In this document: positions 385-3,671 of the stretch, in pieces
Layout: every line of letters begins with the position of its first letter
Position numbering within the stretch: the stretch's first letter is position 1
Notes under the pieces: model-generated
Told to the model about the DNA's origin: nothing
Seen by the model: only the letters and a program-made list of their open reading frames with translations
Databases searched by the model: none
From: Anaerolineae bacterium
GTDB taxonomy: Bacteria > Chloroflexota > Anaerolineae > B4-G1
DNA length: 33,388 bases
Direction of reading: 5' to 3'
NCBI GenBank assembly: GCA_016931785.1
Contig: JAFGED010000403.1
Span: 1-33,388 of the forward strand
Program-made: the position numbers and the translations under genes

Positions 385-1833
385 TTACGCTGCCAACTTT
401 GCCTCCTGCCACAGCGACTCTAACGCGTCGATGTCCATCGCCGTCATATCCAGGCCGCGCTCGCGGGCCATCCGCTCCATAGCGCGAAAACGGCGCGCAA
501 AGCGTGCGTTCGCTTGCCGCAGCGCCACCTCTGGGTCGACATCCAGCCAACGCGCCCAATTGACCGCTGCAAACAGCAAGTCACCCACCTCGGCCTCGCG
601 TGCCTCCAGTGTAGCGGCAGCCTCGACCTCGGCGACCTCTTCGCGCACCTTGTCGGCCACGCCGGCAGGGTCACTCCAATCGAACCCCACGCGGGCCGCA
701 CGGCGGCTATAGGTATCCGCCTGCTGCAACGCGGGCAGCGCCGCCGGCACGCCATCAAACACCGACCGCTTCTCTCCCTTCTCCTCCCGCTTGAGCTCCT
801 CCCAACGCCGCAGCACCTCGTCTGTGCCGCTGACCTCGCGCCCACCCCACACGTGAGGATGGCGGTGTTTGAGCTTGCCGTCGATGCCGGAGATGACGGC
901 GGGCATCTTGAACTCGCCCTCCTCGGTAGCTATCTGGGTGTGGATCAAAACCTGCAACAACAGGTCGCCCAGCTCCTCCTGCAACGCACACACGTCGCCC
1001 GTGCCGGCCGCGGCGGCATCGATGGTCGCCGCCACCTCGTACGCCTCCTCCAGAAGCGTCCCGCGCAGGCTCTCGTGGGTCTGCTCGCGATCCCAGGGAC
1101 AGCCATCCGGCGCGCGGAGCTGGGCCATCGTCTCCTGCAACCCCTCAAAGCTGGCGACGCCGGGCAGTGACGGCACATACAGCGTGGTCAGGTGCTCGAC
1201 GTCCTGGCGGTCGAGCTCGTACAGCGGCAGACGCACGACCTGTTCTTCCGGCGTTCCGGCGGCGCGCACCAGCGCCACCTCGTGGTCGTCGGGATATTGG
1301 TTCATCAATGTCAGCTTGACGTCGGCAGCCAGGGCCCGGCTATAGAGCTGGGGCAGCAAAGCCGGCAGATCGGGGTTGAGCGGCGGGTGATGGAGCGCCG
1401 CCACCTCCACCGCGTCATATACCTGCAGGCCGGGCAGCGCGTCGATCCGCAGCGCCGTCAGTGTCGGCTCTATAAAGCTCAACCCCTCCACGATACGCAC
1501 GTCCAACCCGGTATCCCCGACCAGTGCAAGCAGACGAGCTACTGCCGCCTCTCCCACCAGCGGGTGGCCTGGCACGGCGTAGGCCACTCCCTCCGGTCGC
1601 CGGCCCAGCCGCAGCACCTCGGCGGCAATGGCCTCATAGACCTGCGAAAAGTCCTCCGCTCCCTCGTAGAGCGCGTCGAAGGAATGCAACGCCAAACCGG
1701 CCGGCAACCCGGCCACGGTTGGATGGCGCTCCGTACGCAGCCACACCTCCCTCGCCGCCTCCAGCACCTCCCATGCCTCTCGCGTCAGATGGCGTGGATC
1801 CCCAGGACCCAGGCCGACAATGGTAATTGACAT
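385..1833 (-). CDS. mazG: MazG family NTP pyrophosphohydrolase with N-terminal tetrapyrrole (SAM-dependent) methylase domain (YabN-like)
   Basis: N-term ITIVGLGPGDPRHLT methylase motif; LRAPDGCPWDREQTHESLRGTLLEEAYEV and second MazG-like repeat at C-term. Confidence 0.95.
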   Translation of the reverse strand: MSITIVGLGPGDPRHLTREAWEVLEAAREVWLRTERHPTVAGLPAGLALHSFDALYEGAEDFSQVYEAIAAEVLRLGRRPEGVAYAVPGHPLVGEAAVARLLALVGDTGLDVRIVEGLSFIEPTLTALRIDALPGLQVYDAVEVAALHHPPLNPDLPALLPQLYSRALAADVKLTLMNQYPDDHEVALVRAAGTPEEQVVRLPLYELDRQDVEHLTTLYVPSLPGVASFEGLQETMAQLRAPDGCPWDREQTHESLRGTLLEEAYEVAATIDAAAAGTGDVCALQEELGDLLLQVLIHTQIATEEGEFKMPAVISGIDGKLKHRHPHVWGGREVSGTDEVLRRWEELKREEKGEKRSVFDGVPAALPALQQADTYSRRAARVGFDWSDPAGVADKVREEVAEVEAAATLEAREAEVGDLLFAAVNWARWLDVDPEVALRQANARFARRFRAMERMARERGLDMTAMDIDALESLWQEAKLAA

Positions 1834-1846
1834 CGGCTTCCCCTTT

Positions 1847-1875
1847 TTGACGGAACATATGTTCTACAGTACAAT
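1847..1875 (+). promoter_or_regulatory. promoter of HTH/LAGLIDADG gene (TTGACG-N17-TACAAT)
   Basis: -35 TTGACG 1847-1852, -10 TACAAT 1870-1875, 17-nt spacer; SD AGGAGGG at 1911-1917 upstream of ATG 1927. Confidence 0.75.
1853..1864. promoter_or_regulatory. candidate LexA/SOS box GAACATATGTTC
   Basis: Perfect palindrome matching the GAAC-N4-GTTC core of Gram-positive-type LexA sites, located in the promoter spacer. Confidence 0.6.
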
Positions 1876-1898: not shown

Positions 1899-1927
1899 AT
1901 CATACCACAAAGGAGGGTATCGAGCAA
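1899..1927 (-). promoter_or_regulatory. candidate mazG promoter (TTGCTC-N17-TATGAT), divergent and overlapping
   Basis: Minus strand: TTGCTC (1922-1927) and TATGAT (1899-1904), 17-nt spacer. Confidence 0.5.
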
Positions 1928-3219
1928 TGCCTGCTCACCGAAAGCACATACCAAAGGAAACCTTGCAGCATCTTTACCTGGAACAAGGCCAGAGTCCGAG
2001 GAAAATCGGCCTGCAGCTCGGCTGCGGCGAAACCGCCGTGCGCAAGCGACTGAAGGAATACAACATCCCGATGCGCTCGCGCTCCCGGGCGATTCGCCTG
2101 GGCAAGGGAATCGCCATCGAACGCGAGGCGCTGGTCGAGCTTTACTGGGGCCAGGGCCTTTCCATCCCCGAGGTGTCCGCCCGCCTGGATTGCAGCGAGG
2201 ACGTTATTCGCAGCCGTATGCAGGAGTACGACATCCCCCGCCGCACGTCCTCGGAAAGCGCGCAGTTGAGCCGTGGGATCGACCTGCCCGAGGAATTGGC
2301 GCGGGAGTGGTATACAGGGCAGCAACTCTCGATAGCCGCCATCGCCGAACGGCTCGATTGTAGCGAGACCGCGGTGCGCAACAAGCTGGCCCAATACGGT
2401 ATCGAACGACGAGCGCCGTGGGCACACAACGCGGTCGAGCTGGGCGAGGATGAGCTGAGACGGCTATACGCAGAAGAGGGAATGACCCTGGAAGCCATCG
2501 CCGAGGCTTACGATTGCAGTGCGGCGACGGTGAGCCGAAAGATGAGCAGGTTTGGCATCGCGGCCCGCTCACCCTGGCGCGAGCGCTACCTGCGCCACAA
2601 TTTCAGCGGCGATCCACTGGAGAAAGCCTACCTCGTCGGCTTTCGCCTGGGCGATCTCACCGTGCGCCGCGCCGAACTGTCCATCGAGGTGCTCATGACG
2701 ACAACGTGTCAAGAACAAGTCGACCTGATGTACAAGCTATTCGACCGCTACGGTCACGTTTACGAGCACCACCGGCCGGATAAAAAGGTCTTTATGCAGG
2801 CCCGTCTGGACGACAGCTTCGATTTCCTGCTACCCAAGGAAGACCGCATCCCCGATTGGGTATTGGCGGATACCGAATGTTTCTTCGCTTTCCTCGCCGG
2901 CTACATAGATGCAGATGGCTCAATTCGGATTGCAGGTAACCACAGTGCGCGCCTGGATATTCAAAGCTATGATTCAGGATTTCAAAAGGACACTTGGAAA
3001 CAACTGACAGCCCAAGGATTCTCACTTTCAGAACCCACCATCGTGGTCCCAGCAGGTTATACCAACGCAGCGGGTATCGTCCGCAACAAAGACACCTGGG
3101 GGCTCAACGTACACTGCCGCCGTGAGATAGCTAGACTGCTGCAGTGTTTGATACCCCACCTTAAACACGAAAAACGTCTTGGAGACGCATTAGCAGCCTA
3201 TGCCGTAGTGCGAAAATAA
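1927..3219 (+). CDS. protein with four tandem HTH repeats and a C-terminal LAGLIDADG homing-endonuclease-like domain
   Basis: Four ~53-aa repeats (LYxxxGxSxxxIAxxLDCSExxVRxxLxxYGIxxRS) at aa ~8-222; LAGLIDADG motifs AYLVGFRLGDL (aa 234-244) and LAGYIDADGS (aa 323-332); good SD. Confidence 0.85.
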   Translation: MPAHRKHIPKETLQHLYLEQGQSPRKIGLQLGCGETAVRKRLKEYNIPMRSRSRAIRLGKGIAIEREALVELYWGQGLSIPEVSARLDCSEDVIRSRMQEYDIPRRTSSESAQLSRGIDLPEELAREWYTGQQLSIAAIAERLDCSETAVRNKLAQYGIERRAPWAHNAVELGEDELRRLYAEEGMTLEAIAEAYDCSAATVSRKMSRFGIAARSPWRERYLRHNFSGDPLEKAYLVGFRLGDLTVRRAELSIEVLMTTTCQEQVDLMYKLFDRYGHVYEHHRPDKKVFMQARLDDSFDFLLPKEDRIPDWVLADTECFFAFLAGYIDADGSIRIAGNHSARLDIQSYDSGFQKDTWKQLTAQGFSLSEPTIVVPAGYTNAAGIVRNKDTWGLNVHCRREIARLLQCLIPHLKHEKRLGDALAAYAVVRK

Positions 3220-3248
3220 AAGCGAGGTCGCCAGCGACCTCGCTTTTT
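3218..3248. terminator. bidirectional intrinsic terminator shared by the HTH/LAGLIDADG gene and rplM-rpsI
   Basis: AGCGAGGTCG-CCAG-CGACCTCGCT stem with T-runs on both strands between convergent genes. Confidence 0.85.
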
Positions 3249-3281: not shown

Positions 3282-3671
3282 TCAACGTTTCGTGTATTGA
3301 GGGGCCTTCCTAGCACGTTTAAGCCCGGGCTTTTTACGTTCCTTGGCCCGCGCGTCGCGGGTGAGATAACCGCCCTTGCGCAGAACGGACCGCAAGTCCG
3401 GATCCACCTTCAACAGCGCTCGCGCGATGGCAAGCTGAACCGCCCTGGCCTGGCCGCCGATTCCCCCACCCCGCACCTGAACGCTGACATTGAATCGATG
3501 CTCCGTCGCCGTCGCCTGAAGCGGCGCTTTGAGCGCGAGCATGTCCATACCTCGAGGGAAAAACTGCTCCGCAGGTTTATCGTTGACGACGATAGAACCA
3601 TCGCCCCCGGGGAAGAGACGCGCTCGAGCGGTAGCGGTCTTGCGCCGTCCAACTGCTTCATAGTACTCCAT
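3282..3671 (-). CDS. rpsI: 30S ribosomal protein uS9
   Basis: YYEAVGRRKTATARARLFPGGDG ... KERKKPGLKRARKAPQYTKR. Confidence 0.97.
   Translation of the reverse strand: MEYYEAVGRRKTATARARLFPGGDGSIVVNDKPAEQFFPRGMDMLALKAPLQATATEHRFNVSVQVRGGGIGGQARAVQLAIARALLKVDPDLRSVLRKGGYLTRDARAKERKKPGLKRARKAPQYTKR

Follow-up and report, generated by a model that had tools for sequence, protein, structure and literature searches.

A predicted LexA operator in the promoter of a probable homing endonuclease gene inserted between rpsI and mazG of an Anaerolineae bacterium

The window, by which we mean the whole stretch of 33,388 nucleotides that was analysed (contig JAFGED010000403.1 of the Anaerolineae bacterium assembly GCA_016931785.1), carries rpsI and mazG with a gene of 1.3 kb lying between them in the opposite orientation to both (Table 1). 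In 15 relatives, 8 of which belong to the family of the host, rpsI is followed directly by mazG in the same direction with a gap of mostly 80-180 bp, and the HTHx4-LAGLIDADG gene of the window is thus an insertion for which these 15 relatives provide the empty sites. Between the inserted gene and rpsI lies an inverted repeat (GCGAGGTCGC/GCGACCTCGC) flanked by runs of A and T, which from its sequence may act as a bidirectional terminator-like element separating the two genes. An Rfam search covering the surroundings of the gene and of ten homologue loci gave no intron or riboswitch, the sole match being the tRNA-Pro of the window. A T-box that had been suspected before ileS at one homologue locus (L042) also had no Rfam match.

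Table 1 Features of the window between mazG and rpsI
Feature	Position	Strand	Basis
mazG, directly 3' of rpsI in relatives without the insert	385..1833	-	Pfam; synteny
-35 hexamer TTGACG	1847..1852	+	sequence; promoter scan
Predicted LexA box GAACATATGTTC	1853..1864	no strand	sequence; lexA-promoter matrix score
-10 hexamer TACAAT, 17 bp from the -35	1870..1875	+	sequence; promoter scan; promoter-spacer test
Shine-Dalgarno-like AGGAGGG, 9 nt 5' of the ATG (1927)	1911..1917	+	sequence
HTHx4-LAGLIDADG gene, 430 aa, probable free-standing homing endonuclease	1927..3219	+	Pfam, model, fold search
Four helix-turn-helix units, residues 10-44, 66-100, 122-156 and 174-208	1954..2550	+	Pfam HTH; predicted three-helix units
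LAGLIDADG motif 1 YLVGFRLGDL, acid D243	2629..2658	+	invariant in alignments
LAGLIDADG motif 2 LAGYIDADG, acid D330 (E in homologues)	2893..2919	+	alignments; LAGLIDADG_3 sub-threshold
Inverted repeat GCGAGGTCGC/GCGACCTCGC with adjoining runs of A and T	3217..3248	no strand	sequence
rpsI (ribosomal protein S9), convergent with the inserted gene	3282..3671	-	gene calls

Upstream of the inserted gene positions 1847-1875 read TTGACG-GAACATATGTTC-TACAG-TACAAT with a spacer of 17 bp, and in a promoter scan the TTGACG/TACAAT pair matched 10 of the 12 consensus hexamer bases. The palindrome abuts the -35 hexamer and is contained in the spacer exactly as had been claimed in a preliminary description of this DNA, and the candidate operator therefore overlaps the promoter of the gene. 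The same description held that the outermost bases of the site do not match a LexA consensus. Within the 14-mer at 1852-1865 (GGAACATATGTTCT) this is true of the G at 1852, a position that is mostly A or C in local lexA boxes, but not of the T at 1865, which fits them (AGAAC..GTTCT).

The bare pattern GAACN4GTTC occurs at chance level both in the window (1 found against 0.54 expected) and in the host genome, where 44 sites compare with 50 in a reversed control and there is no enrichment, so the pattern alone proves nothing. We scored the site with a 16-mer matrix derived from the lexA promoters of 23 relatives, none of them from the host genome. The window site reaches 21.8 bits (p ~3.4e-8 per position), a score of which about 0.001 occurrences are expected in a sequence of the size of the window and which exceeds that of most of the sites on which the matrix itself was trained. 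The second-best position in the window scores 14.3 bits.

Among the relatives in which lexA was found 23 of 24 have a box within the spacer between the -35 and -10 of lexA, the promoters following the pattern TTGACAY-AGAACRNATGTTCK-TATAAT, and boxes of this type also occur at lexA in more distant members of the phylum. Three genomes contain two lexA genes each with its own box, namely G067 (L143 and L146, where the two copies are adjacent), G196 (L142 and L147) and G109 (L144 and L148), and additional boxes are present 3' of lexA in G006, G010 and G005. The host genome (G000) has one full lexA (C429:3896-4528) located behind mutM in an apparent mutM-lexA operon, the promoter of which (C429:5550) reads TTGACG-CA-GAACATTTGTTC-TTG-TATAAT and has the same 17-bp spacer and the same arrangement as that of the window. 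The encoded protein scores above the TIGR00498 cut-off with a LexA DNA-binding domain and an S24 peptidase domain, and its translation includes what we take to be the Ala-Gly, Ser and Lys of a self-cleaving LexA. Since the box is shared by the lexA promoter of the host and those of its relatives the motif of the host LexA is that of the window, which supports the preliminary proposal of a LexA-type operator. By analogy with the promoter of lexA itself, blocking of the window promoter by LexA is likewise a supported prediction.

The host genome has 13 sites that match AGAACATATGTTCT with no more than two mismatches, and the reversed control has 4. Of the 13, 10 lie between the hexamers of a sigma70-type promoter with a 17-bp spacer, defined here as a pair matching at 8 or more of the 12 hexamer bases, compared with 1.3% of random positions. 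The genes behind these near-consensus sites include lexA, radA (TIGR00416) and an FtsK-like translocase with two boxes. Boxes are also found before a nitrilase-like gene, a gene that lies ahead of a MerR-type regulator, the gene of a TnpB-type nuclease and a radical-SAM DNA-repair-like gene whose resemblance to TIGR03916 does not reach the cut-off. The FtsK/SpoIIIE-like gene lies 3' of lexA and its boxes are at L018 3467 and 3709 (G000:C429), one in a promoter spacer and the other further downstream. The recA gene is split over two contigs, and around its 5' part, which is on C338, we found no box. A recA box is common in LexA regulons and is not universal, so its absence does not exclude the window site from the SOS regulon. 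Of the genes to which the preliminary description had looked for confirmation, lexA has the box and none was found at recA, and a box is also present at radA.

In its inverted half-sites, the box at the promoter of lexA itself, the inclusion of radA and the overlap of operator and promoter the predicted regulon is like the Gram-positive-type LexA regulon known from B. subtilis and M. tuberculosis with its GAAC-N4-GTTC sites (PMC3323433). It is unlike that regulon in having the local consensus AGAACRNATGTTCK placed in a 17-bp spacer, in the location of lexA behind mutM, in the lack of a visible recA box and in a gene set that includes mobile-element nucleases, these being the window gene and probably a TnpB. 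The site before the TnpB-type gene is a LexA-box-like AGCACAAATGTTCT at G000:C316:2026-2039 (L072 2026-2039) that occupies a 17-bp spacer directly upstream. The gene itself (L072:728-2074, minus strand) has Cas12f1-like TNB and OrfB_IS605 matches with a putative ATG a few nt past the -10, and it is probably another mobile-element nuclease of the host genome that has a promoter of LexA type. Another LexA-like site (L074 2210, G000:C357) lies in the 17-bp spacer before a putative phage Gp37/Gp68-type gene.

The palindrome could in principle be used by a different repressor with this half-site, such as another LexA-like protein. The host genome does contain two weak matches to the LexA DNA-binding domain besides lexA, and some members of the phylum have two lexA copies, but the window site matches the boxes of the lexA promoter and of clear DNA-repair genes and we regard this explanation as very unlikely.

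No high-scoring box was found between rpsI and mazG in the relatives with the direct rpsI-mazG order, which indicates that the box came along with the inserted gene. The comparison thus lends no support to the suggestion in the preliminary description that one operator could serve mazG as well. An operator serving mazG or both genes, with MazG as part of the SOS response, would be in keeping with the position of the box, which ends ~20 bp short of the ATG of mazG on the opposite strand, and with a promoter-like TTGCTC-17-TATGAT pair that may be read upstream of mazG. Given the box-free gap of the relatives we consider this unlikely as the explanation of the site, and an effect of the box on mazG in the host is possible.

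The protein encoded by the insert has repeated HTH matches in its N-terminal half by Pfam and a LAGLIDADG_3 match of 19.3 bits in its C-terminal half, below the cut-off of 22.5. In an AlphaFold2 model of moderate confidence (pLDDT 76, pTM 0.48) four three-helix units precede a two-motif alpha/beta domain, and the best PDB matches in a Foldseek search were the LAGLIDADG enzymes I-Tsp061I (E 1.2e-6), I-WcaI, PI-PfuI, I-SceI and I-DmoI, with low identity (9-19%) to the solved enzymes of this type. In alignments almost all homologues retain both acids, D243 being invariant and D330 being D or E. As judged from the model and these acids, the product is most likely a free-standing homing endonuclease for which cleavage is predicted. 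It shares with the LAGLIDADG homing endonucleases I-Tsp061I, I-DmoI and I-SceI a predicted two-motif single-chain fold with an acid ending each motif, an insertion beside a conserved gene and a patchy distribution across domains, and it is unlike them in its four N-terminal HTH units, in the lack of a detectable intron or intein and in having its own LexA-type promoter. Phage and plasmid records share the HTH array only, as for instance in an annotated GIY-YIG homing endonuclease of Burkholderia phages. A second and apparently broken HTH-LAGLIDADG copy is present in the host genome (L043/L078, G000:C78:3084-3974), where it follows a truncated gene resembling part of a restriction-modification enzyme, and no Rfam intron family matched there.

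The fold search also returned structures of WhiA, ranked lower, which raises the question as to whether the operator is a real LexA operator controlling a domesticated WhiA-like DNA-binding regulator of the host damage response. WhiA is a widely conserved LAGLIDADG-fold regulator and not a nuclease, with a C-terminal HTH that follows a LAGLIDADG-fold domain without the catalytic acids. It has been described as an HTH domain joined to a homing-endonuclease domain (PMC11701221). The window protein is like WhiA (DUF199) in being a bacterial protein with HTH and a LAGLIDADG fold, and a regulatory role would suit its four HTH units. It is unlike WhiA in that the HTH is N-terminal and four-fold, in that it and almost all homologues retain the acids and in that the gene is neither core nor syntenic, its very patchy spread over bacteria and archaea fitting a mobile gene and not a core regulator. 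We consider a WhiA-like regulator rather unlikely and in our judgement an active homing endonuclease is clearly to be preferred.

Homologues of the HTH-LAGLIDADG gene are rare. With the host genome counted, 2 of 60 near relatives have one, as do 6 of 396 genomes from the class and 3 of 400 from the phylum. A single-sequence search of named genomes found no related proteins, whereas an alignment search yielded 23 homologue loci, distributed over CPR bacteria, DPANN and other archaea, Omnitrophota and Chloroflexota. At 12 homologue loci metG is directly 3' of the homologue and at a thirteenth (L092) the two are fused in frame (metG-type loci L088, L092, L094, L096-L100, L103, L105, L106, L108 and L109), and in 4 others (L101, L102, L104 and L107) lepA takes this place. 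The metG and lepA types are found in CPR bacteria and archaea and the gene often overlaps the start codon of its neighbour. Other neighbours include ileS, arsA-like genes (2) and groEL. The homologue tree is poorly resolved, with bacteria and archaea intermingled among the metG types.

The closest parallel to the window in arrangement is in G610, from another class of the phylum, where a homologue of 39% identity (L081 1278-2726, G610:C150) is convergent with the 3' end of rpsI. This homologue has a perfect box CAGAACACATGTTCTA of 20.7 bits located 24 nt 5' of its ATG, so that box and neighbour both recur, and the lexA of G610 also has a GAACN4GTTC box. Both G610 and the host genome are fragmented MAGs, with contamination of 8% and 5% respectively, and no further homologue was found among the close relatives of G610. 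A weaker box of 13.9 bits adjoins a TATAAT at the homologue of G206. From the per-position probabilities about 0.001 scores at the level of G610 and about 0.06 at that of G206 are expected across all homologue upstream regions searched. These are the only two box-bearing homologues that we found besides the window gene. No box was seen at the in-line homologues upstream of metG, lepA, ileS or arsA nor at the type with groEL as neighbour. Conservation of the palindrome upstream of homologues, which the preliminary description had made a test of its reading, thus extends to one perfect and one weak case, with no box seen at the rest.

The absence of a box from most homologues, together with the chance-level occurrence of bare GAACN4GTTC, is what would be expected of a chance palindrome in a constitutive promoter. 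Against this stand the score of the full 16-mer (p ~3e-8 per position), a placement in the spacer that copies that of lexA exactly and the independent perfect box of a homologue from another class, and we find a chance origin highly improbable. With the palindrome kept as a LexA-type site, it is possible, although we hold this only tentatively, that the HTH-LAGLIDADG lineage occupies the borders of universal translation genes, where the rpsI-antisense members with their own LexA-controlled promoter would couple homing to the recombination-proficient SOS state of the host and the in-line members at metG and lepA would use host transcription.

Taken together we consider it likely that the window gene is a LexA-repressed free-standing homing endonuclease, with both its induction by damage and its cleavage activity being predicted. 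The palindrome would be the operator of the host LexA, which when bound between the -35 and -10 would deny RNA polymerase access until DNA damage led to RecA-stimulated self-cleavage of LexA and release of the promoter. The four-HTH array would then read the DNA and the single-chain two-motif LAGLIDADG domain would cut it. A unit of 1.4 kb, comprising the gene and its own promoter and antisense to its neighbours, would have inserted between rpsI and mazG at a target that probably lies within or close to the conserved 3' end of rpsI. Expression tied to SOS would confine cutting to times of active recombination repair, which would copy the gene into the cut site.

SOS-controlled mobile elements include prophages and the integron integrase. 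The SOS control of the latter is documented (PMC3323433), and our literature search found no LexA-controlled homing endonuclease and no HTH-LAGLIDADG gene at metG. The window gene is like these systems in being a mobile-element gene under host LexA, here by prediction, and unlike them in being a homing endonuclease. From the comparison of lexA promoters the LexA operator and the promoter geometry can also be predicted consistently for a Chloroflexota-like group on which we found little LexA literature. The larger finding is that the gene predicted to be under the LexA box is probably a selfish homing endonuclease, the preliminary description having recognized neither this nor the insertion. 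The spread of a homing endonuclease needs host recombination and, if our interpretation is true, LexA control would offer a simple means of restricting cleavage to times when the recombination machinery is on and of sparing the host otherwise. The gene would then join the SOS-controlled prophages and integrases as a selfish gene that has adopted the damage sensor of its host.
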